Origin: a bacterium
Lineage (GTDB): Bacteria; Lindowbacteria; 2-12-FULL-62-27
Direction of reading: 5' to 3'
Assembly (NCBI GenBank): GCA_016202645.1
Contig: JACQOF010000012.1
Coordinates: 1 to 42,477 of the forward strand
DNA: 42,477 nt
The translations under genes and the position numbers were made by a program. Positions 962 through 34,025 of this stretch are shown in pieces. Position 1 is the first letter of the stretch; the number at the start of each line of letters is the position of its first letter. The notes under the pieces were generated by a model. The model was not told where the DNA came from. It worked only from the letters and a program-made list of their open reading frames with translations, and made no database searches.

Positions 962-1333
962 TCAGCTTAATTTGTCGATGATTGTGCTCAGGATGGACTT
1001 CAGTTCCGTTACTTCGTCGAGCGCCTCCTGCGCGGAGGGGGTGGATGGCCAGCGTTTGCGGATGATGCGGAGCCAGTAGCGGGTTTCCTGGGCTTCTTTG
1101 CGCGCAACTACAAACATATGCCGTTTATCCGCCTTGGTCGCGCTCCCGTCAGCCTCCTCGATATTTGCTCCGATTGAAGTTCCGGACTTGGCCAATTGAC
1201 CGCAAATGTGGTTTCCCTCCCGCACATCGGGAATCGCCGCGGCCACATCCAAAACCAAATTCGCAAATTCAAAGGCGCGTTCTCTCAGATCGTAAGGTTT
1301 TTCAGCCATTTCAAGTTTTGTAACTGTCGTCAT
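962..1333 (-). CDS. Four-helix-bundle protein (23S rRNA IVS-type family)
   Basis: This 123-residue protein (115 if started at the internal Met at 1309) carries the family hallmarks: a YDLRERAFEFA start, a central QLAKSGTSIGANIEEADG segment, and helices rich in Lys, Arg and Glu. Relatives are encoded in intervening sequences of 23S rRNA genes and as free-standing genes, and form pentameric helical bundles related to diversity-generating-element Avd proteins. No molecular role is established here, and no rRNA or reverse transcriptase lies in the window. The Met at 1333 falls inside the REP-like hairpin at 1329-1406. The start at 1309 fits the family length better, but neither has a strong ribosome binding site. 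The gene sits alone between inverted repeat arms. Confidence 0.85.
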   Translation of the reverse strand: MTTVTKLEMAEKPYDLRERAFEFANLVLDVAAAIPDVREGNHICGQLAKSGTSIGANIEEADGSATKADKRHMFVVARKEAQETRYWLRIIRKRWPSTPSAQEALDEVTELKSILSTIIDKLS

Positions 1334-1478: not shown

Positions 1479-4400
1479 TCATGGCGCTACGTATATCTTG
1501 TCTTTAATCTGGTTGAAGATTTCGTCGGTGATGTCCGGAACCTGTTTCAAGTCCGATACGGTTTTGAATTTGCCGTAGGTGTAGCGGTAGGCGTCGATCA
1601 TTTTGGCGCGGTACTCGTCGATGCCCGGGAGTTTCTGGAGTTCTTCCAGGGAAGCCGAATTCACGTCGATCTTGCCCTGTTCCTCGGGCGTAGCCTGGGG
1701 GGACGTGGAGGGGCGAATTTCGGGCGGCGGCAGAGTTGCGTCATAGGGATCGGCCGGCGCCGGTTGGGGGGTCGGGGCCGGGGCCGGTTGCGGCGGCGCG
1801 GTCGCCGCGGCGGGCGCCGTCGGCGTTGTCTTGATGCCGGCGGCGGGCGGCGGCGCCAGTTTAATCGGATCTTTTTGCGTGGGCGCGGGCGGCGCGGCGA
1901 CGGGTATGGGTTTTGGCGCCGGCGGCGGCAGAGGGGATCTCGGTGACGGCTTTGCGGGCGGCGGCGTCACGACCGGCGCAGGCGCCGCGATGGCCGGCGG
2001 GGGTGTGTATGCCGGGACCGGCGCCGGCGCCGCCTGTCCGCCCGATACGGCGGGCGGCGGGGCGGCGGATCGAGCCTGCGGCGCGATGGGCAATTTTTGT
2101 TCCTGGGGCGGAAGCCCGAGTTCTCCGGCGCCGCGGACGACGATGACGGGTTTCAGGAACCGGTCATAGAATCCCTTGTTCATCCCGATGCTGAGCATCA
2201 GGGATTCGAATTCCTCGTCGCTTCGGAATATCCCGCGCGCGCGGCGGTCCTCGATGATCTTCTGCGCCATCCCGAGCGTGAGACCCTTGATGCGGACCAG
2301 TTCCTGCAGGTTGACGACATTGATGTCGATTTTGTACTCGATCCGGTAGACGATATCGTCGAAGACGATCCGGGTCAGGCCCGGCACCGTCAGGAGCTGT
2401 TCGAGGGATTGGTAGGGGCCGAACTGTTCGCGCCGCGCGACGATTCTCTGGGCCAATCTGAAGTGCTGTTCCTGGTCGGCGGAACTGCGGAGGCCCGGCA
2501 GTTCCGACAGTTCCGCGATGGAGGAGGTATTGATGTTGACGGGAAAGGGCGTGATCTGTTGAAGGGACTTGGCGACGTCCTTCGTCACCTGGCTGGCCTC
2601 CGGCAAGTTGGTGATGACGCGCGGGGTGATGAAGATCATGAGTTCGGTTTTCTGTTTTCTCTCGGTCTTTGACTTGAAGAGATTCCCGACCACCGGCACG
2701 TCCTTCAGAAACGGCACGCCCGCGTTGGTGGTGGTTTTTTTATCGCGGATGACGCCGCCGAGCACCAGGGTCTGCGCGTCTCCGAGGAGGATCTTGGAAC
2801 TGGCCTCGCGCCGGTCGATGGTCAGGACGGACCCGCTGATCGGAGACGCGGAGAATTCGTTGATGGTTACCAGAATATCCAGTTCCACCGTGCGTTCGCT
2901 CGAAATGGTCGGCGTAATTTCAAGGCTGAGATTGGCGTCGAGGTCCTTGGTTTGCGACGTGATCACCCCCGCGGCCGTGACCTGGTCGAGCCTGACGGTC
3001 GCCGTCTGGCCGAACAGGATCTTCGCCTTCTTGTTGTTCAACGTCGTCACCTTCGGCGTGGCCAGGACTTCGGCGCGGTTGGAGGACTGAATGAATTCGA
3101 ACAGGATCTTGGCCTGCGCGGCGTTCAGAATCACGCGGTACGTTCCGGGCCCAAGCATCGCCGGCGAGAACTCCGTGCCGATTTTTCCCTCATTTCCGGT
3201 CAATCCGGCCGGATCAAAGATATCGGCCTGGGAACCCCCGGCGGCGCGCGTGACGTCCTGGTTGGTGATAAAATTAATGCCGCGCTGGTCTTGGTCTTCA
3301 AGGGTATATTCGAGGATGGTCGCGTCGATGAGGACCTGGGGCGCGGGGCGGTCGTGGGCGGCGATGATTTTTTCAATTTCCGTCATATGGGCTGGGGATG
3401 CGAGGATGGTGATGATGTTCAGGCGGTCGTCCGCCGTGATGCTGGCGATCAGGGAGCTGATGGTTGACTGCGAGTAAACCGCGTCCGACTGCCCCGGCCC
3501 CTGTGTCGTTGTAATGCTGCCTCCGGCTGACCCCCCCGTCGTTCCGCCGGTTCCCACCGTCGCCTGAACCTGGGATCTGGTGACCTCGCCCCTCCCTTTC
3601 AGGATGAGGACCATATCGGACGGCTTGATGTACCGCAGAATAAATGACTTGCTGATCAGGTCCGGCGGCGGCGGCGCGACGACGTCGATATTGGCGATGA
3701 TGTCGTCCAACACGGGGATATTTGGCTCCAGTGTTGCCACGGCAACGGCGTTGCTCCGGTTGATCGGCAGGACCCTGCCGATGATGCCTGTGAATGCGCC
3801 GCCGACGCCTGTGGTGGTGGTCAAGAGTCCCTGCAGGAGGGTATTGGCCTCGGCGGCCGGGATGTTCTTCAATTGATAGACCTTGACCTTGAGCCCGGGC
3901 ATGCCGAGGGGCGGCACGTCCATGGCGCGGATCATGTCTTCGATGGTTTTCATATTTTCAGCGGTCGACAGCACCAGGATGGCATTGACGCTGTTTTCCG
4001 CCGCGAGGGTCCCGTAAATCCTGTCGCGATTGTCCTGGACGGCGGTCAGGAGCGGGTCAAGGGCGATTTTGATCTGAGACGCCGCCGCATGTTTGATGAA
4101 GATGGTCCTGTTGACCAGCGCCTCATTCACTGGGTACTGCATGTCGAGTTTTTCAATGAGCCGGTCCAATTTTTCGGCGTGAGATTTGGGCACGACGGCG
4201 AGGAGTGAATTTCTTCCAAAGAGTTCCGTGACCACGGCCGGGATGCGGCCCGGCTGGACGCCGGCCTGCAGGAAAGTCTGGGCCGGTCCGGCCGAGAAGA
4301 GACCTCCCCCGCCGAGGCTGAACGGGGAGATGAGGAAGCTGTTCAGCGCCCGCAGGACATCGGCGGCCCTCGAAAATTTGAGAGTGTAGAGCTTGAACTC

Positions 4401-7400
4401 GGTATCGACCATATTGGCGTCGTCGAGTTCCTTCAGGAAATTAATGATGCGTTCGGCGATTCCGGGGGCGTCGTAGATGATGAAGGTACCGGTTGGCGGG
4501 TCGAGCAGCCACCAGCTTTCTTCCGGCTCGTTCGATTCCGTTGTCGTTGAGATGTCGAGGCTGGATCGTCCGAACGTTCCGGTGGTGCGAGTGGTGGACT
4601 GCGCGCTGGCCGGGGCGCCCTGCTGGATCATCTTGTCGATGATCTGCCGGATGACCGACCCGCCGTCGACCGGGTCGAGGTTGCGGAATTTGTAAGTCCG
4701 GAACGCGCGGATGCCCTTGTCGAGCGCCGCCATGGCCCCCTCGATCTTCTGAATGGCCTCGCGCCGGTCCTTGACCAGAATGGTGTTGATCTCCGGAAAT
4801 TTCTGAAGGGTCCCCTCCGGCGTGAGGTACCGCTTGACCATGGCTTCGGCCTCGCTCATGGGAATGAATGCGAATTTGAATTCGCGGACGCCGATATTGG
4901 AAAACTCGGTCTGGACGTCGAGGGACTCGAGGACCTGTCCCACGAGGCTCAAAATCTCGCGGGTGCTCAGCACGGTGATGCTGTTTGTGGTGGCGTTCAC
5001 GGTCATGATGTTCAGGGTGAGGATCTGCTTGAGGAATGTCTCGCTCACCCGGTCCTTCCCGGTCTTGGTGCTTTTCGTCAGCGTGAACGTCCGGTAGTCC
5101 ACAAGTCCCCGCCGGCGGACGGTGAGATCGCTGTTGATGACCGTAAACGCGAAATCCTCGCCGCTCATGACCGAGGAGAGCCGGTCGGCCATGTCGATGG
5201 CGGAGACATTTTTGATCTGGAATGTTCGGACCTCGAGATTGGTCTCCCGGGACTTGGCGGTGGGCAGGTCGAGCAACGCAATGACATCCGCCACCTTCTT
5301 GACGTTGTCGGCCGTCTGGACCACGAGGAGCTGGTTGGACAGGGGGTCGCCGATGATCTGGCCTCCGTCGTGTTCGACGAATTCGGACAGGAGTTTCTGC
5401 ATGTTTTCGGCGTCCGTGTATTTGAGTTTGAACACGTGGGTGACGAATTTTCCTCCTCCGCCCGGTGTGTCTGTGACCACCGGCAGGGGCCGGCCCAGCG
5501 CGCGCTGTTTGGCGATGATGCGGATGGCATTGCCCTCGACGACGCGCGTGAGACCCGCGCTTTCGAGGACCATGTCGAGGGCTTCGATGACGGTGACGTC
5601 GACGACGTGAATGGTGAGGGGCGGGATGGCGGTTTTCTTTTCGGCGCCTTTGGGGTCGATGAAGGGGACGACGAACCCCTTTTTGGCTTCGTCATATTCG
5701 AGGTCAAAGATGACGTTCATGTTCCCGAGCTGTGCGAGGGTTCGGATGACGTCGACGATATTGGCGTCCTTGAAATCCAGCGAGACCACCCGCTGGCCGG
5801 CCTTGGCGGAAAAGAGCACGCGGTCGCCCGTTCCGGCCACGCCGACGAGCCGGGCCTCGACCAGCTGTTCGCCGGCCTCGGCCCCGAGAACCCAGACTTC
5901 GCAGCGGGCAATTCCCTGGGTGTCCGCGATGGATTCGTTGTCCTTGGGATCGTTGGCCCTGATGGTGTCCAGGCGTCCGTTGCCTTTCAGGATCGCGAAT
6001 TGGACTTTTGCGTCCGGCACGGGGTTGTCGAATTCGTCCAGGGCGCGAACGACAAGAGGGAGGGGCAATTCCTCCCCGGAGATGACTTCCTGCGCGTCGC
6101 CCGAAACTTTTTCAAGGCTGACGGGCGGCCCCGGCGCCGCTTGGATGGGAAAACTCATCTCGGCGAGATTGAATTTGGCGGGGTCGCCGACCGACGCCCT
6201 CACGTAGAGACTTCCGGGTTTTTTACCCACGGAAACCTTCAGGTCCACATGCCCACTCTTGTCTGTTTTAACGCTGACCTTCGTGACGCCTTCGGTGTAG
6301 GGCCCGCTGAGGGACGCGGCAACCTCTCCCGGAACGATTTCGAACGTCACGGGCAGGTCGGCGACGGGTACGGCGCTGGCGGCGTCGAGGACTTTGAGGG
6401 AAATGGCTTTTGAGAATTTGGTAACGGTCACGGACTGCCCCGCCCCCCCGATTTCCGTGAAGGCGTACCTGGGGCCGATCTCGATTACGGGCGTCGGCGC
6501 CGCCGGCGTTATGGTTTCCGGCCCCGCGGCCGCCGTTCCCGGGGAGACGCCGGTCGCTGCGGGGGTCGGCGCCGTTGCCGGCGGTTTCGGGGCTCCGACG
6601 GCCGCAGCCAGGCTCTGCGGCACAGACGCGGCTCCGAATCTGACCCATATTCCGCCCTCGGCGGCTTCGACGGCCGGCATTTCGACGCCCCGTTTCAAAT
6701 CGACGACGATGCGCGCGGTGTTGATGGGAAATGTGCTGAACTGGCTGTGACGGATACGGAGGATCGGCCCGCGTTTAACGTCCAGGACTTTCCGGGGCAG
6801 TTTATCGACGGCGCCGAGAAGATCGATGGCCGTCATGGGCGGGGAGAGGATGGGATTGGTCAGGAAATCGACGCCCTCCGTCGTCCGGATGAACACATAG
6901 GGCGCGGATGCGTCGCCATAGACTTCGATGGCGTAGACGCTGCCCTCAAATCCGGCCGGCGGGGCGTCGGAACCGAACCTGAGAACAGCGCCGTCTGGCG
7001 TGGAGGCCGCAGTCGCCGTCGGCGGAGACACCGGTCCGCCTGAGGCGGAGGGCGCCGGGGGCGCTGATCCGGCCGGCGTCGGAGACGCCGGTCCGCCTGA
7101 GGCGGAAGGCGCCGGAGGCGCTGATCCGGGCGCCGCCTCGGCGGGCACGTCAAGGATCATGACATCGACATCCGCCGTCGGCGGAGACACCGGAGACCCG
7201 GTTCGAACCTGGGGTTCTACCGCGGGAGTCGGCGCCGGGGCCGGCGGCAGGTCTTTATTGATTTCCTCAATCAGCTGTTTGGCCTTCTCATGTTTTGGAT
7301 TCTGCTGGATGACCCGTTCGAGCATCATACGGGCCTCCTCGAGTTTGCCCTCGACGTACATGCGAGTTGCCGTCTGGAAGAGTTCCTCTGTGGTTTCGGC

Positions 7401-7559
7401 GGCGGCGGGAGTCAGCGCGAGGGGGGCGGGGAATGGAGAGAGAGAGAGAGTCAGGGCAAGCAGAAATAGAGTAAATCGATGAAACCCCCCTCCCGGCCTC
7501 CCCCTCAAGGGGGGAGGAGGTGTCGGGGCTGAGTGGAGAGTATGTGTCAGGCGGTTCAT
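1479..7559 (-). CDS. pilQ: Giant type IV pilus secretin with C-terminal ComEA-like HhH units
   Basis: 2026 residues, far longer than usual PilQ (roughly 450-900). From the N terminus: signal peptide (RFTLFLLALTLSLSPFP region) interrupted upstream by a repeat; short TPR-like segment (about 55-105); repeat-rich Ala/Pro linker (about 110-200); AMIN domain (about 200-305); two bacterial Ig-like domains (about 370-580); secretin N0/STN domain (about 585-695); about eight N1/NolW-type repeats (about 700-1400); the secretin channel with VPVVGNLF and LMIFITPRVI motifs (about 1400-1650). Two ComEA-like helix-hairpin-helix segments follow (NINTSSIAELSELPGL; INVVNLQELVRIKGL), then an Ala/Pro linker and a third (KIDVNSASLEELQKLPGID). 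Secretins form the outer-membrane pore for the pilus; HhH units of ComEA bind incoming DNA. The ATG overlaps the previous gene's stop (ATGA). It is last in the pilM-N/O/P operon. Confidence 0.93.
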   Translation of the reverse strand: MNRLTHTLHSAPTPPPPLRGRPGGGFHRFTLFLLALTLSLSPFPAPLALTPAAAETTEELFQTATRMYVEGKLEEARMMLERVIQQNPKHEKAKQLIEEINKDLPPAPAPTPAVEPQVRTGSPVSPPTADVDVMILDVPAEAAPGSAPPAPSASGGPASPTPAGSAPPAPSASGGPVSPPTATAASTPDGAVLRFGSDAPPAGFEGSVYAIEVYGDASAPYVFIRTTEGVDFLTNPILSPPMTAIDLLGAVDKLPRKVLDVKRGPILRIRHSQFSTFPINTARIVVDLKRGVEMPAVEAAEGGIWVRFGAASVPQSLAAAVGAPKPPATAPTPAATGVSPGTAAAGPETITPAAPTPVIEIGPRYAFTEIGGAGQSVTVTKFSKAISLKVLDAASAVPVADLPVTFEIVPGEVAASLSGPYTEGVTKVSVKTDKSGHVDLKVSVGKKPGSLYVRASVGDPAKFNLAEMSFPIQAAPGPPVSLEKVSGDAQEVISGEELPLPLVVRALDEFDNPVPDAKVQFAILKGNGRLDTIRANDPKDNESIADTQGIARCEVWVLGAEAGEQLVEARLVGVAGTGDRVLFSAKAGQRVVSLDFKDANIVDVIRTLAQLGNMNVIFDLEYDEAKKGFVVPFIDPKGAEKKTAIPPLTIHVVDVTVIEALDMVLESAGLTRVVEGNAIRIIAKQRALGRPLPVVTDTPGGGGKFVTHVFKLKYTDAENMQKLLSEFVEHDGGQIIGDPLSNQLLVVQTADNVKKVADVIALLDLPTAKSRETNLEVRTFQIKNVSAIDMADRLSSVMSGEDFAFTVINSDLTVRRRGLVDYRTFTLTKSTKTGKDRVSETFLKQILTLNIMTVNATTNSITVLSTREILSLVGQVLESLDVQTEFSNIGVREFKFAFIPMSEAEAMVKRYLTPEGTLQKFPEINTILVKDRREAIQKIEGAMAALDKGIRAFRTYKFRNLDPVDGGSVIRQIIDKMIQQGAPASAQSTTRTTGTFGRSSLDISTTTESNEPEESWWLLDPPTGTFIIYDAPGIAERIINFLKELDDANMVDTEFKLYTLKFSRAADVLRALNSFLISPFSLGGGGLFSAGPAQTFLQAGVQPGRIPAVVTELFGRNSLLAVVPKSHAEKLDRLIEKLDMQYPVNEALVNRTIFIKHAAASQIKIALDPLLTAVQDNRDRIYGTLAAENSVNAILVLSTAENMKTIEDMIRAMDVPPLGMPGLKVKVYQLKNIPAAEANTLLQGLLTTTTGVGGAFTGIIGRVLPINRSNAVAVATLEPNIPVLDDIIANIDVVAPPPPDLISKSFILRYIKPSDMVLILKGRGEVTRSQVQATVGTGGTTGGSAGGSITTTQGPGQSDAVYSQSTISSLIASITADDRLNIITILASPAHMTEIEKIIAAHDRPAPQVLIDATILEYTLEDQDQRGINFITNQDVTRAAGGSQADIFDPAGLTGNEGKIGTEFSPAMLGPGTYRVILNAAQAKILFEFIQSSNRAEVLATPKVTTLNNKKAKILFGQTATVRLDQVTAAGVITSQTKDLDANLSLEITPTISSERTVELDILVTINEFSASPISGSVLTIDRREASSKILLGDAQTLVLGGVIRDKKTTTNAGVPFLKDVPVVGNLFKSKTERKQKTELMIFITPRVITNLPEASQVTKDVAKSLQQITPFPVNINTSSIAELSELPGLRSSADQEQHFRLAQRIVARREQFGPYQSLEQLLTVPGLTRIVFDDIVYRIEYKIDINVVNLQELVRIKGLTLGMAQKIIEDRRARGIFRSDEEFESLMLSIGMNKGFYDRFLKPVIVVRGAGELGLPPQEQKLPIAPQARSAAPPPAVSGGQAAPAPVPAYTPPPAIAAPAPVVTPPPAKPSPRSPLPPPAPKPIPVAAPPAPTQKDPIKLAPPPAAGIKTTPTAPAAATAPPQPAPAPTPQPAPADPYDATLPPPEIRPSTSPQATPEEQGKIDVNSASLEELQKLPGIDEYRAKMIDAYRYTYGKFKTVSDLKQVPDITDEIFNQIKDKIYVAP
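7015..7129. repeat. Tandem in-frame palindromic element, family A, in the secretin
   Basis: Two tandem copies of about 57 bases (19 codons), so the frame is kept. The second copy holds three hairpins: GCCGGCGTC-GGA-GACGCCGG, TCCGCC-TGA-GGCGGA and GCGCC-GGA-GGCGC, ending in TGATCCGG. They encode the repeated Gly-Ser-Ala-Pro-Pro-Ala-Pro-Ser-Ala-Ser-Gly-Gly blocks in the N-terminal linker of the secretin. A further fragment of the first hairpin is visible near 7172-7195. Related copies lie in pheA, tyrA and the S1-protein gene. Confidence 0.85.
7483..7520. repeat. Palindromic element, family C, in secretin signal region
   Basis: CCTCCCCC-TCAA-GGGGGGAGG hairpin (7497-7517), preceded by CCCCCCTCCCGG. 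Read on the minus strand it encodes the Pro-rich block PTPPPPLRGRPGGGF between the start Met and the hydrophobic core of the signal peptide. The same element lies upstream of pdxA and at the end of scpA. Confidence 0.85.
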
Positions 7560-10500
7560 TGTCCGAGGAGCCTCAAGACTTTTTCGAGCCGGGTGCGCAG
7601 TGCCATGGCATCCGGGTGGCCGGGGTGAGCGGAGAGGAAGAGTTCGACGGCGCGTCTTGCGGTTTTATAATCTCCGCGGTTGACCATCGCCTGGATCTCC
7701 AGGAGCGACGGGATGGTGGACGCCGGCGCCGGCGTGGACTCGACTGCCGGCAGAAATTCGGATGTGGCCGTTCCAGGGCCCGGCGAGAGCGACACGACGA
7801 GGAGGTTGGCCCGGGCGTTGACGGAGTAGGCGTACCTCGAATCCATTTTGAGAATGAGACGCGGGGTGGCGGGGACGTCGGACGTGGCGTGCGCGGACAA
7901 TTTGGCCGCGCGGAGTCCCGGGAAGTCGAGCGCGTCGTATTGAATTTCCCTTTGAAGGGAAGCGTTCGGAAAGGTCAAAACGAGCGCGTCGAAACCGTCC
8001 CCGTACCGGCTGGGCTCGGCCGCCCGGTATTCGACTGGCCCGCTGGCCAGAAGATAGATGTCGGTGCGGTCGCCGGTGTATCCGTAGGTTTTGAAATAGA
8101 GCCCCTCGATCCTGGAAGCCTTTTCCGGAATCCACCCGCCGCCGGCCTCTCCCGGACTGTCTTTGATCTGCAGGGTTACCCGCCCCGCCTGCGGCACGAC
8201 GAGCCAGGCTTCCGCGGAACCCCCTCGAAAGAGTTGAGGGGATAGGGCGTCGGGGGTGACGATCTGGCCGCGTTTCTGACTGCCGATCCGGACGTGCCGT
8301 CCGAGAGATTTCATATTTTCGACGGGGTTTCCGAACGCGTCCACCGCGTTGACGCGGACGCGAAAGGGTTCGCCGGCCGTGACGGGATCGAGGACATCGA
8401 CGCGATAGGACGCGGGTTCCGCGGGCAGAACGGTCACCGGATTGGATTTTCCGACGGCCTTGCGGTCTTCCGTCGCGACGGTGATTTCCGTCTGTCCCGT
8501 GGCGGACACCGCCGCCTGGACGAGGGCGACGCCATTGGCGAACCGTCCGGCATCGATCTGCGCCGGCTGGACGGAGGCGTTGCCCGAAGCGGAGAGGCGG
8601 ATATATCCGGACGTTTGAAGCTGCCGGACCAGGTTGTAGTACATGTCCTGGGCCTCGATGCGGATCGGGAATTTTTCCCCGGCCTGGATGCGCGGCGACG
8701 CGGAGACGAGGAAGTGGTCCAGCGGTCCCGCGGAAATGTTGATCCGGCCGGACCGGCCGGAGGCCGATCCGAAGCGTTCGGTGGCGGTGAGGAGGAGGGA
8801 TTCCGCGGCGTAGGTTACGACATCCACCTGCGCGACGCCCTTGGTGAAAGCCGCCGGCATCACGACAGCCGGTTGAACTTCACTCACCCCGGATGAATGG
8901 ATCTGGACGCCCTGTCCCGTCCGGTCATAATCGGCCGGCGTATTTCCAAACGCGTCGCGCGCGCGGAGGGTCAGCCGGAACGGCTCGCCGGCGCGTCCCT
9001 GCGAGGGCAGGTCCAGATCGAAGTGGTGGAGTGCGGCGGGGAGGATTTCCACGGGACTGGACGTTATTTTTCTGCCGTTCAATTCCGCCGACACGCGCGC
9101 GCTTCCGGCCATGAAATAATTCACCGTGACCTCGGCGCGGCCCTTCACGAAGGCCTCCGGGGAGACCTCCGTCGCCGGCGGCGCGTTGGGCGCTTCAACC
9201 CGGACGGTCGTAACGTGATCGGAGCGGTCGAAGGTTTCGACGGTATTCCGATACGCGTCGACGGCCGTGATCCGGACGGTGATGCCGGCGCCCGCGGTGA
9301 CCTTGTCCGGCACCGCCACATCAAGCCCGGCCGGGGGTCCATGCCGGACGATGACGCGGACGGGGTCCGACCGGATGATCCCGGCGGCGTCCTGGGCGGC
9401 AAGGACAATCTCCTCGGCGATGTTGTAGGAAAGCTTGCGATCCGCCTCTCCATTTTTGAATCCGGCCGCCGGAATATCAATCGGCGTAGTGGCGACCGAC
9501 CCGCGGACTTCGAGAATGACGCGCTGGCCCGCCGACTTGGAAAGGTTGCCCCTGGAGTCGACCGTCCGGATTTTAACGCTGAAGGGGTTTCCGGCCTCGA
9601 TGGCCGGCGGCGCCTCCAGCTCCAGCCGCGCGACTTTGCCGGGCTGAACCGCGACCGGCGCGGACGCTCCGGTGCGTCCCGTTCCGGGTTCGGAAACGAG
9701 GAGCGATATGTTTTCGGGTTTGTCATACAGGATCTTCGCGAAGGCCACGCCCTTGACGAACTTGTCCGGCGGAACTTGCGCGTTCGTGATCGCCCCGGAC
9801 CCGTCGGAACCGATCACAACCATGGTGCCGACGGCGTTGAAATCGGTGACGACATTGCCGTAGGCGTCGAGCACGGTCAAGGCCACGTCGAAGGCCTCGT
9901 CGACCAGCGCCTGTCCGGGCGCCGTCACCTGAAACTTGACCGGCTCGCCCGGCCCCACCGAAATTTTCCCCGCCGACCGACCTGTGACACCGTCGGCGGG
10001 ATCTTTGGCGATGATCTCGATGTCCCCGGTCCCGGTGTAGGTGATGGAGACGTCGGCGACCCCGCCGGAGAACGCCGCGGGCGCGACGCGCATCGGATTC
10101 AGGAGGCCGTACCCTCCGGTTGAGAGGACGATGCCGGTCGAACGCTCCTTGAAGTCTTTCAGGATGTTTCCAAAGGCGTCAACGGCCGTGATGGAGGCGC
10201 GGAAGGGCGTTCCGGCTCTGGCGGCGGCCGGCGTGACGACACGAAGTTCCGCGAGTTTCCCGGGACCCACCGAGAACGGCGGGCTTCGGAATTCCACTCC
10301 GGACCATGAGCCGCCGCGGGAAACCGCGGCCGCTCCGCCGGGCCGTACCGCCAGTTCAATCCGTTCCGCCACCTGATAGACCGCCTGAATTTCCGCCATG
10401 CCTTCCCGGAATGATTCGGGGGATATGGACTTGGGGCGGACATCACCGCGTCCGACCGCCCGGAGTTCGAAGGGCGTTCCGCGCCGGTCGAAGTCCATAA

Positions 10501-10696
10501 CCACGTTGCCGAACCGGTCGCGCACTTCGATCTTGACGGTAAATGGCTCGCCGGCCCGGGCCTTGGCCGGAACGGTCCAGACGATGGATGCGGGCGACGC
10601 CGCGGATACGTCGACCTCGGCCGCGCGGGCGGAGAGAGGGAGAGAGAGCGCGGCCATGCAGATGGCTGCCCCGGCCAGCATTGCCTTACGTCCCAT
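7556..10696 (-). CDS. Periplasmic Ig-repeat/AMIN/TPR protein of the pilus operon
   Basis: 1046 residues with a clear signal peptide (Met-Gly-Arg-Lys, hydrophobic core, cut after ARAA). About eight Ig-like repeats of roughly 100 residues follow, each marked by a T/S-A-G-x-P-F...V/I-x-A-x-D-x-x-G-N pattern (for example AGEPFTVKIEVRDRFGNVV; AGTPFRASITAVDAFGN; AGEPFRVRVNAVDAFGN). After these comes an AMIN-like beta domain (about 890-985) and a short TPR-like helix pair at the C terminus (NRGDYKTARRAVELFLSAHPGHPDA). It starts one base inside the pilP stop behind an excellent GGAGGTGA ribosome binding site and ends in an ATGA overlap with pilQ, so it is part of the pilus operon. AMIN domains commonly bind peptidoglycan. 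A scaffold around the secretin is the most likely role, but this is inferred. I recognise no named family for the whole protein. Confidence 0.85.
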   Translation of the reverse strand: MGRKAMLAGAAICMAALSLPLSARAAEVDVSAASPASIVWTVPAKARAGEPFTVKIEVRDRFGNVVMDFDRRGTPFELRAVGRGDVRPKSISPESFREGMAEIQAVYQVAERIELAVRPGGAAAVSRGGSWSGVEFRSPPFSVGPGKLAELRVVTPAAARAGTPFRASITAVDAFGNILKDFKERSTGIVLSTGGYGLLNPMRVAPAAFSGGVADVSITYTGTGDIEIIAKDPADGVTGRSAGKISVGPGEPVKFQVTAPGQALVDEAFDVALTVLDAYGNVVTDFNAVGTMVVIGSDGSGAITNAQVPPDKFVKGVAFAKILYDKPENISLLVSEPGTGRTGASAPVAVQPGKVARLELEAPPAIEAGNPFSVKIRTVDSRGNLSKSAGQRVILEVRGSVATTPIDIPAAGFKNGEADRKLSYNIAEEIVLAAQDAAGIIRSDPVRVIVRHGPPAGLDVAVPDKVTAGAGITVRITAVDAYRNTVETFDRSDHVTTVRVEAPNAPPATEVSPEAFVKGRAEVTVNYFMAGSARVSAELNGRKITSSPVEILPAALHHFDLDLPSQGRAGEPFRLTLRARDAFGNTPADYDRTGQGVQIHSSGVSEVQPAVVMPAAFTKGVAQVDVVTYAAESLLLTATERFGSASGRSGRINISAGPLDHFLVSASPRIQAGEKFPIRIEAQDMYYNLVRQLQTSGYIRLSASGNASVQPAQIDAGRFANGVALVQAAVSATGQTEITVATEDRKAVGKSNPVTVLPAEPASYRVDVLDPVTAGEPFRVRVNAVDAFGNPVENMKSLGRHVRIGSQKRGQIVTPDALSPQLFRGGSAEAWLVVPQAGRVTLQIKDSPGEAGGGWIPEKASRIEGLYFKTYGYTGDRTDIYLLASGPVEYRAAEPSRYGDGFDALVLTFPNASLQREIQYDALDFPGLRAAKLSAHATSDVPATPRLILKMDSRYAYSVNARANLLVVSLSPGPGTATSEFLPAVESTPAPASTIPSLLEIQAMVNRGDYKTARRAVELFLSAHPGHPDAMALRTRLEKVLRLLGQ

Positions 10697-11586
10697 CAGA
10701 AATCACCTCCGAAGTCCATCCCGTCGCCGCCATCGCCGCCGGCGTCCCCGCCACCATCGCCGCCGCCGTCCCCGCCGGCGTCTCCGCCGAGACCATCGTC
10801 TCCAGCCCCGGCGTCCTCGTCCCCCTCGTCCTCGGCTTCATCCGTCTTTTTCTTGCGTCCGCTCCCCTTCTTTTGCGATTTCTTTGCATCTCCCGCCGCC
10901 TCAACCGGGGCTTCCTCCTCCTCGTCCTCTCCCTTGACCACCGGCGCCGGCCGCTTGGTGGAGTATTTCCAGTTGGACTGGGTCTTGTACACGTTGTTCT
11001 TGAGGGACTGGCTGAGATCGGCGAGCCCGTGTTCAAACGGGAGAGCAACGGGCGACGGGATCAGTCCCTCTTCCTGGACTTTGATGAAACTCCGGCCGAT
11101 CTCAACGACCTTTTTTCGGGTCCCCCGGATACTACTGCCCTCCCGGACGACGATTGCGACATTGTTGAATTCGATGAGCGCCGTGCGCCGTGTGGGGGTA
11201 TGGGAATAGACGGTGCCGACGAGTTCAATCCCGCTGACGTCGGTAAATTTTTCTTCCTCATCCCTGATTCCGGTTTGTTCGATCATTCCGGGCGGGAGGA
11301 ACGGGTTATGCTGTTGAAGGATGCGCACGGCATAACTTTTCTGCGCCGGCGGCGCCGGCGCCGGCGGATCCCTGTGTTTGATCCGTCTCATTTGTTCCTC
11401 GACCCTCGCGCGGACTTTCCGGGCGTCCTCGAGACCGTAGAGGACGAAGAAGTCCGGGTCGAAGGTAAAGGGGTCGATGAGGAGGTATCCGGCGACCACG
11501 ATACCGGCAAGGGACACGAAGATGAGTATCCGGACGAGCGGGACCTTCGCATTGATCTTGAAAAATAATTCCTTCAATTTTCCCAT
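10696..11586 (-). CDS. pilP: PilP/GspC-like inner-membrane pilus protein with acidic tail
   Basis: 296 residues. One N-terminal membrane segment (PLVRILIFVSLAGIVVAGYLL, about 15-35) is followed by a periplasmic region. The NPFLPP motif (about 95) and a small beta domain (VGTVYSHTPTRRTALIEF... VEIGRSFIKVQEEG) match the homology region of PilP/GspC that contacts the secretin N0 domain. Classical PilP is a lipoprotein; here a membrane anchor replaces the lipobox, as in GspC. The last 80 residues are low complexity: Lys-rich, then Glu/Asp, then Gly-Gly-Asp repeats (10700-10830 on the DNA), which is odd for this family. The position between pilO and the Ig-repeat protein supports the call. Confidence 0.8.
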   Translation of the reverse strand: MGKLKELFFKINAKVPLVRILIFVSLAGIVVAGYLLIDPFTFDPDFFVLYGLEDARKVRARVEEQMRRIKHRDPPAPAPPAQKSYAVRILQQHNPFLPPGMIEQTGIRDEEEKFTDVSGIELVGTVYSHTPTRRTALIEFNNVAIVVREGSSIRGTRKKVVEIGRSFIKVQEEGLIPSPVALPFEHGLADLSQSLKNNVYKTQSNWKYSTKRPAPVVKGEDEEEEAPVEAAGDAKKSQKKGSGRKKKTDEAEDEGDEDAGAGDDGLGGDAGGDGGGDGGGDAGGDGGDGMDFGGDF

Positions 11587-11590: not shown

Positions 11591-12148
11591 TCAGGACTCC
11601 CCGATGGTCGAGGAATAGACGTTCGCGCTGAGGACGATCTGAAACCGCTGGGCTTTCTGTCCCGGCTCCATCGTCTCGGGGGTCAGGCTGATGACGGAGA
11701 CGTCGATGATGCGTTCAAAATTTTCAAGCCGCCACAAAAAGTCAATGAATTGGAACCAGTAGCTGCTTCCCTCAATACGAAAGCCCACCGCCGACCAGCC
11801 CTCCCCCCGTTCCTTGCGTTCTTCGATCGATATCCCCGATACCCTCACTCCGGAAAAGGCCGCCAGGCCCTGAAGTTTTTCAATCAGCTCAAAGGACCCC
11901 TCTTCCGTCGGCAGGACTTTCTTCAGATCCGCCAGGCGGTATTTCAGAACTTCAACTTCCGCGTTCAGCCCGCCCATGTTCTCGGCTTTCCGGTGCGCGA
12001 GCCTGAGTTCCCGGACGAGGTCCTGAATTTCCACCTCCCGTTTCTGGTAGGTGTCGAACATGGGCATGACATAGAGATAGATCAGGGCGCCGGTGCCCGC
12101 GACGGCGAGGAATGCCAGCGCGCGTTTGTCGCTTTCCTTCAGCGCCAT
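11591..12148 (-). CDS. pilO: PilO type IV pilus inner-membrane assembly protein
   Basis: About 185 residues starting MALKESDKRA. One membrane segment (ALAFLAVAGTGALIYLYVMPMF, about 10-32) is followed by a coiled coil (QKREVEIQDLVRELRLAHRK...) and a ferredoxin-like C-terminal domain (GVRVSGISIEERKE... YWFQFIDFLWRLENFERIIDV). This is the PilO plan: an inner-membrane partner of PilN that links PilM to PilP and the secretin. The start at 12148 was chosen because a GGGAGGAG ribosome binding site lies 7 bases upstream and it follows the pilM-pilN stop by one base. A longer frame to 12220 would overlap the preceding gene. Confidence 0.9.
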   Translation of the reverse strand: MALKESDKRALAFLAVAGTGALIYLYVMPMFDTYQKREVEIQDLVRELRLAHRKAENMGGLNAEVEVLKYRLADLKKVLPTEEGSFELIEKLQGLAAFSGVRVSGISIEERKERGEGWSAVGFRIEGSSYWFQFIDFLWRLENFERIIDVSVISLTPETMEPGQKAQRFQIVLSANVYSSTIGES

Positions 12149-12149
12149 C

Positions 12150-14546
12150 TCACGCTCCTCCCGGCTCGGACTTGACGGAGACGGCCGTGTGATCGACCCG
12201 GAGATCAAACTGGACCTCAAACATATCGATCCCGCCCATGTTCGTTTTCCGCGGGCTTGGCTTGTTGGTGAGCGAGAAATAATTTTTCGTATATTCCGGG
12301 GATTGGAATCGTTTTCCGATGTCCGGTATTTCGGTCAGGGAATTGGCAATGACCTGGAGGGCGATTTGGTCCTTCGCCGGCATGGACATCGACCTCACCG
12401 AGGCATTATCGGGGAGGGTCCTGTCCAGCGCCACGAGTACGGGGATCCACTTGGCCTTGGCGGACACGAGACTCGCAATTGATTTTTCAAGGTCGTTGAC
12501 GGTCTTCTGGTCTTTCTCGAGCTGCCGCGTCTGCATGACCACCGATTCGAGTTCCTGAACATCGCCCTGGAGTTTGCGGTAGAGCGTATCCTGATTGCGG
12601 GTGATCATGAATGCGTAGACGCCCAATTGAGCCAGGAGCAGGCCGGCCGCGATCGCCAGATATTTGAGGTCCCGGCCCATGCTCCGCATGCGCCGGATGG
12701 CCTGAATATTGGCGGGGATGAGATTGATATCGAGGGGAGTTCCGTCCAGAAGCCGCATGCCCATGCCGACGACCGAGGCGAAAATCTGGGAATTCAATGT
12801 TTCTCTGCCCGCCGGGGGCGGCGGGACCGCCGCGGTCAGCGGATCGAAGAGGACAACGGGAACATTGAGCTGGGCGGTCAAATATTCCGGCAGTCCCTTC
12901 AGGCTCGCGCCGCCGCCGGAAAGAATAATTTTTTTGACGTCTCCTCCTCCAAGTTGGCTGCTGAAGTAATCGAAAGAACGCCGGAGTTCGGTCACCATGC
13001 GGTCCGCGATGGGCTTGATGGCGGCGGTCACTTTGTCCTTGTCGATCTTTTCGTCGTCTCCGCCGCCCTCAAAAAGCGAGAACACCTCGCCGTCCTCGGC
13101 TTTCGCCGCGCCCAGGGATTTGCCGTCACCGGGTTTCGGAGGAAGGGGCCTGAGTCCGGGCGGAGGCGGTGCGGTTATCGGAGGTTTCGGCATGGCCGGC
13201 CCAGGGGGTGGCGCGGGCGGCATTTGCGGCATGGCCGCCACGCCGGGGGGCTTGGGCAGAGTGAGCGCCGGCGGTTTGGTGGGCGCGGCGGGGGGCGTCG
13301 GCGCCGGCGTCGTGGCGGGCGCGGCGGGCGCGGCCCCCGGCGGTTTTGGCAACGCCAGCGTTGGCGGTTTGGGCGTTGGCGGAGCGGCTGGTCCGGCCGG
13401 CGCGGCCGGCGGGGTCGGCGGCGCGGGGGGTGTCGCGCCCGGCGGTTTGGGCAACGCCAGCGTCGGCGGGGATGGCAAGGGAACTTCTGTCGGCTTTTTC
13501 GGTATTTCTTTTTCCTTGGCGCCTTCCGGCGTCGCGGCCGTGGGGGGCCGAAGGGACGGCGGCGTCAACCCGCCGGATTTGGGAGGGACGAGACCTCCTC
13601 CGGCGCTGGGCGGAACGAGTCCGCCGCCGGCGGCCGGTTTCGGCGGCATCAGGCCCCCCGCGGACGGCGGCGCAAGCCCGGGCGCCTTGGCCGTCGGCAG
13701 AGCGGCACCCGGAGCTTTGGGCGACGCGAGTCCCCCGGCGATGGGCGCGGGACCCTCGAGCGCGGCGAGGTCGACGGCGATGGCTTTGATCTCAGCGTGC
13801 CTGATCTTGATTCTCTCCGCTTTCTCCTCCGGAATATCCAGCCGCTTGGCGATGATTTCCGTAAAGCTTCGCCCGGCGATCGGGACGCTGCGCGTGAAAA
13901 AAACGCGCTGGTCCTTCAGAAACGCGATGTCGGTCGTCCCGGCGCCAATGTCGACGAAAACTTCCGCGCCGGTATCGGCCTCGGATTTTTGCTTGAGCTC
14001 GCTGTGGTAGTACAGGGAGAAGAGCGCGAGGGTGCTGACGTCGACGACCTGGACCTCAAGACCCGCCTCCTCGATGATGGCGACCATGCTGTCGAGTTTG
14101 TCCTGCTTGATCGCCACGAGCAGTACCTCGAACCCATCCGCGGTCTTTCGGGCCTCGCACCAGTCCAGAGACACTTCCGCCAGCGGAAACGGGATGTGCC
14201 CCTCGGCCTCGTGACGCACCACGCCTTCGAGCCGCTCCTTCGGGATGCCCTTGAGCGTCAAGTAGCGGATGACGACCGATTGGGCCGGAAGGCAGAAGAT
14301 GACATTTTTCTGCTTGATTTTATTTTTCTGAACGAGTTCCTTGAGCAGATCCGCGGCCCTGGCTTCGAACTCCTTGCCGGAGAGCCCGGGGGGCATGGGA
14401 AGCGCGTCCCACATATCGACCCTGTACTTCCCCCTCCCGCCCGACAGCCGGCATAACTTCACGGCGGACGCCCCCACATCGACGGCCAGGTAGGACTTTT
14501 TCGCAAACAATGACGGCAGACTCAAACCCGATAGTTTGAATGCCAT
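12150..14546 (-). CDS. pilMN: PilM-PilN fusion, pilus ATPase-like and membrane protein
   Basis: About 798 residues from MAFKLSGLSL. The N-terminal part is PilM, an actin-like cytoplasmic protein: YLAVDVGASAVKLCRL (phosphate 1), a SHS2-like region, DIGAGTTDIAF (phosphate 2), then after a long insert LSGGGASLKGLPEYL (adenosine motif). The insert (about 260-500) is Ala/Pro/Gly-rich with repeated LxLPKPPG and GGLVPPxSG units. PilN follows directly: LDINLIPAN (about 602), one membrane helix (YLAIAAGLLLAQLGVYAFMI, about 627-646), a coiled coil and a ferredoxin-like domain. In other bacteria PilM binds the INLLP-type tail of a separate PilN; here the two are covalently joined. A longer frame reaches 14618, but 14546 matches the family start. 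First gene of the pilus operon. Confidence 0.92.
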   Translation of the reverse strand: MAFKLSGLSLPSLFAKKSYLAVDVGASAVKLCRLSGGRGKYRVDMWDALPMPPGLSGKEFEARAADLLKELVQKNKIKQKNVIFCLPAQSVVIRYLTLKGIPKERLEGVVRHEAEGHIPFPLAEVSLDWCEARKTADGFEVLLVAIKQDKLDSMVAIIEEAGLEVQVVDVSTLALFSLYYHSELKQKSEADTGAEVFVDIGAGTTDIAFLKDQRVFFTRSVPIAGRSFTEIIAKRLDIPEEKAERIKIRHAEIKAIAVDLAALEGPAPIAGGLASPKAPGAALPTAKAPGLAPPSAGGLMPPKPAAGGGLVPPSAGGGLVPPKSGGLTPPSLRPPTAATPEGAKEKEIPKKPTEVPLPSPPTLALPKPPGATPPAPPTPPAAPAGPAAPPTPKPPTLALPKPPGAAPAAPATTPAPTPPAAPTKPPALTLPKPPGVAAMPQMPPAPPPGPAMPKPPITAPPPPGLRPLPPKPGDGKSLGAAKAEDGEVFSLFEGGGDDEKIDKDKVTAAIKPIADRMVTELRRSFDYFSSQLGGGDVKKIILSGGGASLKGLPEYLTAQLNVPVVLFDPLTAAVPPPPAGRETLNSQIFASVVGMGMRLLDGTPLDINLIPANIQAIRRMRSMGRDLKYLAIAAGLLLAQLGVYAFMITRNQDTLYRKLQGDVQELESVVMQTRQLEKDQKTVNDLEKSIASLVSAKAKWIPVLVALDRTLPDNASVRSMSMPAKDQIALQVIANSLTEIPDIGKRFQSPEYTKNYFSLTNKPSPRKTNMGGIDMFEVQFDLRVDHTAVSVKSEPGGA

Positions 14547-14845
14547 AACCCTCGCGTTCCGCCCTTCAGTTATCCGCGCCCCCCTTGGGCCCGGCTTCCG
14601 GCCCAGTTGGACCGACAACCCTCCCGCCCTGCGTCGCGAAACACAGAGCCGTGTGCCCCCACAGCACCCCCCTTCCTATTTACATTATCGGGATGTAAAC
14701 CATTCGACATTACTTAATGAATATGTCCACGTCAATAAATACAGTAAACATTTTTGGCGGTCCCGGGCGTCGACTTTGGAGGAAAGTTGACAATTCCGGG
14801 CGGGCAATCCACAATTGGCGAAATTTTGGATGGAGGTTGCGCTGG
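14547..14845. promoter_or_regulatory. Divergent intergenic region, pilus operon / NCS1 permease
   Basis: About 300 bases without a supported gene. For the permease, TTGACA (14787-14792) and CACAAT (14810-14815) are 17 bases apart, a plausible sigma-70 promoter. An inverted repeat TTTACAT-7-ATGTAAA (14679-14699) could be an operator. I found no convincing -10/-35 pair for the pilus operon and no riboswitch I recognise. Confidence 0.4.
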
Positions 14846-17883: not shown

Positions 17884-19012
17884 AGGCTCCCAGGGCCTCG
17901 AAAAATCGACCGGCTTTGAGCAGCGACTCCTCATATTCTTTTTCCGGGTCCGAGTAAATGGTGATCCCGCCGCCGGCTGTATAGCGGAGAACGCGTCCGA
18001 CGATCGCCGCCGTCCGGATGGCGACGGCGAACTCCATGTCGTCCCGGCCGATCCAGCCGTAGGCCCCGAAGGATTCCTCGCGGGCGAAGGGTTCCAGGGA
18101 GTCGATGATTCGGCAGGCGGAGATTTTCGGCGCGCCGGTCACGGAACCTGACGGAAAGACCGCCGCCAGCAGTTCAATCAGCGGGATGGACTTCCGGAGA
18201 TGACCCGAAACCCGGGAGAAGAGGTGCCGCGCATAGGGGATTCGCATCTCGATCGGGCCTTCCGCGTGGATACTGCCGGTCCGGCAGATTTTGCCGAGGT
18301 CGTTCCGGAAGAGGTCCGTGATCATCAGCAGTTCCGCGCGGTCTTTCGCGCTTCCGACAAGACCCCGTTCGCCCGTCCCGGCGGTTCCCTTGACCGGTTC
18401 GGCCTGGATGCGGGTTTTTCGGACCGAAAAAAACAGTTCCGGAGAAAATCCCAGGATCGCGGAGGCGCCGGTCCGTTCGAAAAATCCGAATCGCGGGTGC
18501 ATCAAGCGGCTGGCGCGGTCGAAAATCCGGCGGGCGTCCGGGACGCGCGGGTATCGCCATTCCCATCTTTGGGAAAGGTTCACTTCGTAGGCGTCTCCCC
18601 TCTGCAGGGCTTTTCGAATCTTGAATATCTTGTCCCCGTAAGATTCGCGGTCGTCGGTTTGGGCGGTCTTCGCCCGTATCCGCGATCCCCGGCTCGCCGG
18701 TTCGGAAACCGGTTTGCAGGCGGAGACGCGGTGAAAGCGGAGAAGCGGCAACTGCCGGCGCCAGGACCGGGTAAGGCCCGGCAGGAACATCCGCCCCAGC
18801 TCGTAGGAGACAAATCCGATCCAGCCGGATTCCCAAGGCCGACCGCGCCTGAGCGTTTTCCGGCCGGCGTCAATCCGGTCCAGGCACCAGACCGCCTCGT
18901 CCGGAGTCCACGCGGTGAGAGTCTCTTCGATCCGCCCCGCACGCACGCGCCGCGCGCGCCCGTTCTCCCATCGTTCGATCAGAACTTCCGATTCACCCGT
19001 GTTTGTCGCCAC
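17849..19012 (-). CDS. pabB: Aminodeoxychorismate synthase component I
   Basis: 387 residues from a GTG start with GGAGGG immediately upstream. The chorismate-binding core is intact: AEPVKGTAGTGERG, DLFRNDLGKICRTGSI, FPSGSVTGAPK and the C-terminal GGGITIYSDPEKEYEESLLKA. It transfers ammonia from the glutamine amidotransferase partner to chorismate, giving aminodeoxychorismate for folate synthesis. No pabA glutaminase is present in the window. The last 10 or so residues (ACPQRAMEKFPS) come from a palindromic repeat. It lies upstream of pabC on the same strand and divergent from pilT, with 57 bases between the starts. The PabB family also includes anthranilate and salicylate synthases; the adjacent lyase favours PabB. 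Confidence 0.92.
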   Translation of the reverse strand: MATNTGESEVLIERWENGRARRVRAGRIEETLTAWTPDEAVWCLDRIDAGRKTLRRGRPWESGWIGFVSYELGRMFLPGLTRSWRRQLPLLRFHRVSACKPVSEPASRGSRIRAKTAQTDDRESYGDKIFKIRKALQRGDAYEVNLSQRWEWRYPRVPDARRIFDRASRLMHPRFGFFERTGASAILGFSPELFFSVRKTRIQAEPVKGTAGTGERGLVGSAKDRAELLMITDLFRNDLGKICRTGSIHAEGPIEMRIPYARHLFSRVSGHLRKSIPLIELLAAVFPSGSVTGAPKISACRIIDSLEPFAREESFGAYGWIGRDDMEFAVAIRTAAIVGRVLRYTAGGGITIYSDPEKEYEESLLKAGRFFEALGACPQRAMEKFPS

Positions 19013-19069
19013 GTCCCTCCAGAGTACCTAGACAGCCACGAAGACACAAAGGTACATTGGTGGACTGTC

Positions 19070-20170
19070 ATGTCGACGAACTATCACATCAACGATTTTC
19101 TGAAAATGATGGTTGAAAACGGCGCATCCGACATCATCGTCAAGGCCGGGTCGGCGCCGGCCATGCGGATCAACCGGGGGCTGGTGAAGATCGAGATGGA
19201 TCCCATCACCCCGGAGGGCATGGAGAAGCTCTGCCTGAACATCACCGACTGGGAGAAAATCGCGAAAGTCAAAGCGGGCGAGGAGCAAGACTTGGCCTAC
19301 GGCGTTTCGGGCGTCGGCCGGTTTCGCGTCAATATCTTCCGCCAGCGCGGGTCCCTCGGGATGGTGATGCGGCACATCAAGGGCAACATTCCGAACTTCG
19401 AGGAATTGACGCTCCCGCGGGTGATGTACAACCTCTGCGGATTTCAGTACGGCATCTTTCTCGTGACCGGCACCACCGGCAGCGGCAAGTCGACGACGCT
19501 GGCGGCGATGATCGATCATATCAATACGAACATGGCCAAACACATCGTGACGATCGAGGACCCCATCGAGTTTCTCCACAAGGACAAAATGGGCGTGATC
19601 ACCCAGCGCGAGATCGGGCTTGATACCGCCAGTTACGGCACCGCCCTGAAATATGTCCTCCGCCAGAACCCCGACATCATTCTAGTCGGGGAAATGCGGG
19701 ACAAGGAAACCGTCGAGACGGCATTCACCGCGGCCGAAACCGGCCACCTCGTCTTTTCGACCCTTCACACCGCCAACGCCCCGCAGACGATCGAGCGAGT
19801 TTTGGAGTTTTACCAGGAGGAGGAGAAAGACCGGATGCGGATTTTGATGTCGGAATTCATCGTGGCGGTCGTGTCCCAGCGGCTTATCCCGAAGGCCGAT
19901 GGAAGCGGCATGGCGCCGAACGTCGAAATCATGATCCAGTCGCCGATGATCAAGAAACTGATCGTCGACAACCGCATCCCCAAACTCAAATCCGCCATCC
20001 ACCAAGCCCGGCAGGACGGCATGCAGACCTTCGACCAGTCCCTCGTCGATCTCTTCAACGCGGGCCTCATCAGCACCGAGGAAGCGCGCGCCCGCGCGTC
20101 GAAGCCGGCCGCGTGGGAGCTCTATCTCAAGGGCCATTTCCCCGACATCGAAACTGGTATTCTGGGGTAG
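19070..20170 (+). CDS. pilT: PilT/PilU-type twitching motility ATPase
   Basis: 366 residues starting MSTNYHINDFL. The family start ASDIIVKAGSAPAMRIN is followed by Walker A GTTGSGKST (about 142), IVTIEDPIEFLH, Walker B DIILVGEMRD and HLVFSTLHTANA. PilT hexamers power pilus retraction and, in naturally competent bacteria, DNA uptake. The C-terminal half keeps the ring-forming segment (SQRLIPKADGSG). GGTGG lies 7 bases before the ATG. The frame is open upstream to 18200 only because pabB lies antisense. The gene is on the opposite strand from the pilM-Q operon and separated from it by the permease and pab genes. A long hairpin follows its stop. Confidence 0.95.
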   Translation: MSTNYHINDFLKMMVENGASDIIVKAGSAPAMRINRGLVKIEMDPITPEGMEKLCLNITDWEKIAKVKAGEEQDLAYGVSGVGRFRVNIFRQRGSLGMVMRHIKGNIPNFEELTLPRVMYNLCGFQYGIFLVTGTTGSGKSTTLAAMIDHINTNMAKHIVTIEDPIEFLHKDKMGVITQREIGLDTASYGTALKYVLRQNPDIILVGEMRDKETVETAFTAAETGHLVFSTLHTANAPQTIERVLEFYQEEEKDRMRILMSEFIVAVVSQRLIPKADGSGMAPNVEIMIQSPMIKKLIVDNRIPKLKSAIHQARQDGMQTFDQSLVDLFNAGLISTEEARARASKPAAWELYLKGHFPDIETGILG

Positions 20171-32747: not shown

Positions 32748-34025
32748 ATGATACGACTCTCGGGTCTGGTCCCGGACAAATCGATCTCCCACCGCGCCGC
32801 GATCCTCGCGTCCATGGCTGACGGCGAAAGCCGCATCGAAAATTTTTCCGCCGCCGACGATTGTCTCCGGACGTTGGCGGCCGTCGAGCAGCTCGGCGTC
32901 CCGGTCCAGCGTTCCACCTCCGCCCTGGTTGTCTCCGGCGGCGTCCGCCGCTTCGCCGCGCCCTCCGCGCCCCTTGATCTCGGAAATTCAGGCACCGGCC
33001 TGAGACTCCTTCTCGGTCTTCTAGCCGGCCAGGCCTTCCGGACCACTCTGACAGGCGACGAGAGTTTGCGGTCCCGCCCGATGGACCGAGTGGCGCGACC
33101 GCTCATGGATATGGGCGCCAGGCTGGAGGGGACCGACGGATTTCACGCGCCGGTTACCGTCACCGGCGCGCGGCCGCTCAAAGGGATTTCGTGGAAGCTC
33201 GTTCCGATCAGCGCGCAAGTGAAGTCGGCAATTCTGATCGCGACCTGTTTCGCCGAAGGCGAGACAACGATTCTCGAGCCCGTTCCGACCCGCGACCATA
33301 CGGAGCGGATGTTGACCGCCGCGGGGATCGAGGTCCGCCGCGCGCCCGATCCATCCGGCCTGGAAATCCGGATGCGTGGCGGCCTTCGGCCAAACCCTTT
33401 CCATATCCGCATCCCCGGCGATTTTTCCGCCGCGGCCTTTTTTGCGGCGCTCGGCATCCTCTCCGAAAAAATCGGCGGCGTCGAAATATCCGACATCGGC
33501 CTCAACCCCACCCGGACCGCCTTCCTGGACGTGGCCCGGCTCATGGGCGCACCGGTTGAGACCCGCGTTGATCGCGAGGAATGCGGCGAGCCGGTCGGCA
33601 CGCTCACCGTCCGTCCCGGGCCGCTTCGGGGGATCGAAATCCCGCGGGAGTGGATCCCGAACCTCATCGACGAACTCCCGATCATTTCCGTCCTCGCCGC
33701 CCGCGCGTCCGGCACGACCGTCGTGCGCGGCGCGGAGGAACTGCGGGTCAAGGAAAGCGACCGGATCAAGGCCATCGTCGAAATGTTGCGCGGATTTTCC
33801 GTTGACTGTTCCGAGCGCGAGGACGGTTTCTCCGTTACCGGCGGCCCGGCCCTGACGCCCGTCCGGGACCGCTTCAAGACTTTCGCCGACCACCGCATCG
33901 CCATGAGCGTTTTGATCGCCGCCGCGTCGTCCGGCCGCCGGCAGGTCCAGGTTGACAACACCGAGTGCATCAATACATCCTTTCCGAAATTCTTCGACGT
34001 GCTGAGGGAGACCCATGACTTCTAA
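32748..34025 (+). CDS. aroA: 5-enolpyruvylshikimate-3-phosphate synthase
   Basis: 425 residues. DKSISHRAAILASMADG (shikimate/PEP site), LGNSGTGLRLLLGLLAG, DESLRSRPMDR and a late DHRIAMS are classic EPSP synthase motifs. The enzyme makes the chorismate precursor, upstream of the pheA and tyrA reactions. The first residues before SGLVPDKS are few, so the protein starts very close to the active-site loop. Seven bases after tyrA; its stop overlaps cmk by 11 bases. Confidence 0.96.
   Translation: MIRLSGLVPDKSISHRAAILASMADGESRIENFSAADDCLRTLAAVEQLGVPVQRSTSALVVSGGVRRFAAPSAPLDLGNSGTGLRLLLGLLAGQAFRTTLTGDESLRSRPMDRVARPLMDMGARLEGTDGFHAPVTVTGARPLKGISWKLVPISAQVKSAILIATCFAEGETTILEPVPTRDHTERMLTAAGIEVRRAPDPSGLEIRMRGGLRPNPFHIRIPGDFSAAAFFAALGILSEKIGGVEISDIGLNPTRTAFLDVARLMGAPVETRVDREECGEPVGTLTVRPGPLRGIEIPREWIPNLIDELPIISVLAARASGTTVVRGAEELRVKESDRIKAIVEMLRGFSVDCSEREDGFSVTGGPALTPVRDRFKTFADHRIAMSVLIAAASSGRRQVQVDNTECINTSFPKFFDVLRETHDF

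Follow-up and report, generated by a model that had tools for sequence, protein, structure and literature searches.

The locus described here raises the question whether an outer-membrane secretin can carry, within one polypeptide, the receptor that draws DNA into the periplasm. In transformation, DNA is inferred to cross the outer membrane via the secretin PilQ while ComEA draws it in on the periplasmic side; PilQ and ComEA are separate proteins, and contact between them is assumed. In the 42,477-nucleotide stretch of Lindowbacteria DNA analysed here (the window), positions 1479–7559 on the minus strand form a single uninterrupted open reading frame of 2026 amino acids, which encodes a type IV pilus secretin with a C-terminal helix-hairpin-helix (HhH) tail. 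An earlier note, made from the nucleotide letters alone, had read this frame as a secretin fused to three ComEA-like HhH segments, a fusion that would put a DNA trap at the pore.

The secretin part is assembled from familiar domains, all on the minus strand: a candidate AMIN domain, typical for PilQ-type secretins, at residues 220–299 (6663–6902; PF11741, E = 3.9e-4, 20.9 bits, barely above the cut-off of 20.5); an Ig-like region (Pfam); an STN-like (N0) segment at residues 648–684 (5508–5618; PF07660, E = 4e-5, under its cut-off); the Secretin_N periplasmic ring domains at residues ~700–1405 (3345–5462; PF03958, E = 1.5e-51, five significant stretches); and, behind these N-domains as in the secretin superfamily, the channel domain at residues 1490–1649 (2613–3092; PF00263, E = 4.5e-43). 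The GspD model TIGR02517 scores 386.8 bits, above its cut-off of 351.35, and the PilQ model TIGR02515 scores 245.8 bits, under its cut-off of 284.35. Despite this order of scores, the protein is identified as a type IV pilus secretin because its operon contains PilM and PilO genes and a PilT gene is near; the operon partners are thus PilM- and PilO-like rather than type II secretion (T2SS) genes. On the same strand as the secretin, the operon begins with a PilM-like ATPase (Amuc_1101-like; 12150–14618; PF11104, E = 5.5e-49, TIGR01175 above cut-off), followed by a PilO-like inner-membrane platform protein (11591–12220; PF04350, E = 1.1e-8), a 296-residue protein without Pfam match in the position of the small inner-membrane pilus-platform protein (10696–11586), and a 1046-residue protein with Ig/filamin-like repeats (7556–10696; Pfam), whose gene shares 4 bases with the beginning of the secretin gene. 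On the plus strand, a PilT-family retraction ATPase is encoded at 18200–20170 (Pfam T2SSE; TIGR01420 at 19088–20107, 440.8 bits, above cut-off), in a frame whose 5' end probably extends beyond the gene. The upstream order of PilO-like protein, small protein and large protein recurs at the fusion in one genome of each of two other phyla (G041 and G135); wherever the sequence upstream of a fusion was read, a large gene occupies the Ig-repeat position, and the G135 counterpart of the 296-residue protein has a weak T2SSC match. The window protein thus resembles PilQ in its AMIN, Secretin_N and Secretin domains, in the pilM and PilO genes upstream and in the nearby PilT gene, and differs from PilQ in scoring under the PilQ and over the GspD cut-off, and in its five Secretin_N stretches, its Ig-like region and its HhH tail of 355 residues.

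Within this tail, C-terminal to the channel, Pfam finds three significant HHH_3 stretches (PF12836; E = 2.5e-39 for the protein), at the places where the earlier note had put its three segments. HhH1 (residues 1672–1741; 2337–2546, minus strand) and HhH2 (residues 1742–1811; 2127–2336, minus strand) lie close behind the channel; HhH3 (residues 1962–2026; 1482–1676, minus strand) forms the C-terminal end of the protein, beyond a Pro/Ala-rich linker of 150 residues, 55% of them proline or alanine (residues 1812–1961; 1677–2126, minus strand), which bears out the long Ala/Pro linker described before the last unit. Every unit is a complete HHH_3 domain with two hairpins, which makes six hairpins in total. 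In HhH1 about eight inserted residues break the first hairpin; the hairpin of HhH2 reads KGLTLGMA, without GxG, and that of HhH3 reads GIDEYRA. The canonical GxG, earlier called weakened, is indeed lost, and more thoroughly than that word implies, being absent from the first hairpin of all units. As judged by profile, the tail domains belong to the ComEA family: TIGR00426, the NCBIfam model of the ComEA helix-hairpin-helix, matches the secretin with 86.6 bits (cut-off 53.1), so that the proposed profile check of the tail places the segments in the ComEA-type HHH_3 family. The whole-protein ComEA model TIGR01259 stays below its cut-off (88.3 against 152.35 bits); ComEA-type HHH_3 occurs here as a domain of the secretin, not as a stand-alone exported protein.

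The predicted structure of HhH3 agrees with this assignment. Its AlphaFold2 model (pLDDT 88.8), compared with solved structures by Foldseek, has Geobacillus ComEA (8dss_B) as top match (TMq 0.88, rmsd 1.2); Tex, PsbU and Thermus ComEA come next, and GspK-type structures are far weaker; according to this model, HhH3 has the fold of the ComEA DNA-binding domain. The single-sequence AlphaFold2 model of HhH1–HhH2 has a pLDDT of 45.8, too low for surface inspection, and modelling of the C-terminus, suggested earlier as a check, therefore speaks for a ComEA fold in HhH3 only. The likeness to ComEA (TIGR00426/PF12836; 8dss, 8dfk, 2duy) comprises a profile score above cut-off, the two-hairpin fold predicted for HhH3, an export context and the presence of competence genes; the differences are that the tail is covalently part of a secretin, comes in two or three copies, has lost the hairpin glycine and, in HhH1, has its first hairpin interrupted.

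The fusion is real and conserved. A profile of the tail, searched against 386 sampled genomes at a threshold that could miss more divergent fusions, gave strong matches inside a secretin-sized frame in seven genomes only, and these are all seven of the genomes sampled from three sparsely sampled phyla. The search for the same fusion in related genomes, proposed in the earlier note, thus found it in six genomes besides the window's own (G000). All three HhH units are present in the secretins of G000, of two other species of its phylum (G001 and G002), and of G135 and G271 in the third phylum; in the second phylum, the G020 secretin has HhH1–HhH2 only, without HhH3, and the G041 contig stops within HhH2. 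The same fusion in G001, G002, G135, G271 and G020 excludes chance or mis-assembly. Among three genera of the window's family, HhH1 and HhH3 are 82–84% and 83–86% identical to the window's copy, the channel 57–77% and the linker 42–56%; since HhH1 and HhH3 are better conserved than the channel, the tail in this family is under strong constraint. No report of a fusion between a secretin or PilQ and ComEA or a helix-hairpin-helix was found in the open-licence papers searched, judged mostly by title and abstract, which suggests, tentatively, that a type IV pilus secretin and a tail of ComEA fold, each familiar by itself, are newly combined here.

All seven fusion genomes also encode ComEC, DprA, PilT-family ATPases and other HHH_3/ComEA-type genes. 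On contig C6 of the window's genome, comEA and comEC form a classical pair; contig C17 carries another comEC, accompanied by a ComEA with two HhH units. The look-out for comEC and a separate comEA that the earlier note had recommended found both, adjoining each other, and the separate ComEA beside comEC carries a GIG hairpin. In G020 the genes follow in the order secretin-HhH, membrane protein, Ndk-like protein (by eye), comEC, three-HhH ComEA, metallo-beta-lactamase-like protein and two-HhH ComEA, so that in this lineage the fusion sits within a competence gene cluster. A membrane protein, of about 390 residues where complete, also lies downstream of the secretin in G002, G135 and G271; the two copies tested had no Pfam match. 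An apparent counterpart of it (by eye) lies on contig C17 of the window's genome, two genes from the comEC-comEA pair. In the window, the place of this membrane protein directly downstream of the secretin is taken by a gene for a 23S rRNA-intervening-sequence-type protein (962–1333, minus strand), and a partial M6 peptidase is found downstream as well.

Whether the tail could grip DNA can be judged from the residues with which ComEA does so. The loop of the first ComEA hairpin (GxG, then Lys) contacts the DNA backbone. In Vibrio cholerae ComEA, the replacements G60V, G60E and K63E abolish transformation; G60A does not, and the G60A protein retains DNA binding (PMC3879209). In Bacillus subtilis ComEA, transformation drops by more than two logs with either K164A or K199A, the two positions that matter most for its function there (PMC9747964). 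Across the seven genomes, the first hairpin has lost its second glycine in all 12 HhH2 and HhH3 units, six of which have Asp in its place; alignments of the HhH1 units show inserts at the first-hairpin site. The ComEA genes beside comEC keep this glycine. An initial contrast of 24/24 stand-alone against 0/12 fusion units was biased to the best-scoring domains and was replaced by a wider comparison with 85 HHH_3 entries outside the fusions, taken from the same seven genomes; about 52 of these have the canonical hairpin pattern and 33 lack it. This count by pattern is rough: GLG is present in two or more of the 33, and one of the domains was counted twice. Eroded hairpins are thus common outside comEA, and on sequence evidence the fusion units fall in an eroded HHH_3 class common on exported proteins other than ComEA. 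In the window's family, the HhH3 residues aligned with K164 and K199 of B. subtilis are Arg and Lys, respectively (alignments, by eye); in HhH3 of G135 and G271 they are Asp, at the place that also corresponds to K63 of V. cholerae, and Lys (by eye); HhH1 and HhH2 of the window are without basic residues at both positions (alignments, by eye). Overall charge was rejected as an argument: the slightly acidic character of HhH1 and HhH3 is shared by several of the genome's stand-alone ComEA domains. Since the G60A protein of V. cholerae still binds, loss of the glycine alone is no proof against DNA binding (PMC3879209). Taken together, these residues weigh against DNA binding by HhH1 and HhH2, which appears disfavoured, and HhH3 could go either way.

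Among the explanations for such a tail, a docking or assembly collar around the pore exit is favoured over a DNA trap tethered to the pore, and can be called probable by a small measure. Docking or assembly is the most likely function because the hairpins are eroded although the domains are highly conserved in a fusion that spans three phyla, with the comEC-adjoining ComEA proteins keeping the glycine that the fusion units have lost, and because other proteins that appear to be exported bear nearly identical modules of HhH3 type. Modules of HhH3 type with the GIDEYRAKMIDAYRYTYG hairpin, 69–71% identical to the secretin HhH3, are found on a TPR protein of G001 (C26:116156–117598, plus strand) and on a 637-residue frame of the window's genome (C17:62946–64859, minus strand), each with an apparent signal sequence; this is the expected look of a shared docking module. 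PsbU, the 12 kDa extrinsic protein of photosystem II, is a member of this fold that acts as a protein subunit; it shares an HHH_3-related fold with the tail by Foldseek and profile matches, although its complex is unrelated and its match weaker than that of ComEA. The C-terminal regions of type II secretins, moreover, bind pilotin (PMC6532946). For a pure protein dock, the basic K164 and K199 positions in HhH3 of the window's family are odd, HhH3 is missing from G020, the binding of DNA by V. cholerae G60A ComEA without the glycine tells in the other direction (PMC3879209), and the low-confidence model precludes a view of the HhH1–HhH2 surface. The same basic positions (PMC9747964) would suit a tail that, chiefly through the tethered HhH3, binds double-stranded DNA on its exit from the secretin and either ratchets it inwards or passes it on to ComEA/ComEC; multimerisation, for which Gram-positive ComEA has an oligomerisation domain of its own, would come from the secretin ring. 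This is a possible but doubtful reading, consistent with the ComEA-type profiles, the predicted HhH3 fold, the competence genes of all seven genomes and the G020 fusion gene, which precedes Ndk, comEC and two comEA genes; it has to contend with a GxG hairpin missing from every unit and interrupted in HhH1, with separate GIG-bearing ComEA genes, and with Asp in HhH3 where G60E, and in G135 and G271 also where K63E, abolishes transformation in V. cholerae (PMC3879209). That the secretin would be its own DNA receptor, with a tethered ring of ComEA-fold domains capturing and ratcheting DNA so that a single polypeptide would serve as channel and receptor in three phyla or more, is on the whole unlikely. 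Of the proposed DNA trap at the pore, the ComEA family assignment and the pilus and competence context have stood; the role of DNA receptor is unsupported, given the separate GIG-bearing ComEA by comEC, the lost hairpin glycine and the non-transformable G60E mutant (PMC3879209).

Two further explanations deserve mention. The HhH units had also been likened to those of GspK, and the protein could be a type II-type secretin of the ordinary kind whose GspK-like interaction module contacts a pseudopilus or pilus tip. The GspD score above cut-off would fit; HhH2 has a weak T2SSK match, GspK has HhH-like segments, and in the PDB the HhH1–2 profile weakly matches T2SS protein K (E = 0.39). GspK is, however, a minor pseudopilin on the filament and no secretin, its matches are much weaker than those of ComEA, and the operon has PilM and PilO with PilT near; this explanation is very improbable, and the likeness noted earlier amounts to a faint resemblance. 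Least credible of all is a relic, HhH domains from a duplicated comEA retained without specific function: these genomes abound in shuffled HHH_3 domains (11 to 32 matches each), but a relic would hardly be better conserved than the channel among genera, in a fusion that persists across three phyla.

On the favoured reading, the protein is the outer-membrane pore of a type IV pilus that can retract, in a lineage capable of transformation. Secretin rings have about a dozen subunits, which would place some 36 modules around the pore exit. The tail lies behind the channel domain in the position of the S-domain of GspD-type secretins, with an HhH fold in place of the short S-domain helices. In type II secretins this C-terminal region after the channel binds pilotin and is not in the channel lumen (PMC6532946). 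Since HhH1–HhH2 take the S-domain place, the tail is most likely periplasmic and arranged around the barrel; the earlier location "at the pore" would accordingly hold for the periplasmic rim and not for the lumen (PMC6532946). HhH1 and HhH2 would form a compact collar right after the channel, with a role in assembly or in binding a putative periplasmic partner, and HhH3 on its flexible Pro/Ala tether would reach into the periplasm and dock a putative pilus or competence partner, a protein or perhaps DNA at low affinity; a link of the tail to DNA uptake is likewise putative. That three phyla conserve such a covalent fusion is a natural hint that secretin and ComEA-fold parts act next to each other, and the PilQ-ComEA link can here be tested within one polypeptide. 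If the tail is a docking module, the ComEA fold would have been reused, as in PsbU, to build the pilus machine.

HHH_3 domains also occur in other combinations in these genomes. Ser/Thr protein kinase-like frames (by eye) carry several HHH_3 domains in tandem on contig C33 of G001 (L056, L231), and one such frame with HHH_3 (C17:8928–10151, L052; by eye) lies close to the comEA-comEC cluster of the window's genome; on contig C4 of the latter, a 510-residue protein combines HHH_3 with a phospholipase D-type nuclease domain (L054:8246–9775, plus strand). Elsewhere in the window, one 462-residue frame (34015–35403, plus strand) joins cytidylate kinase and acyltransferase domains.
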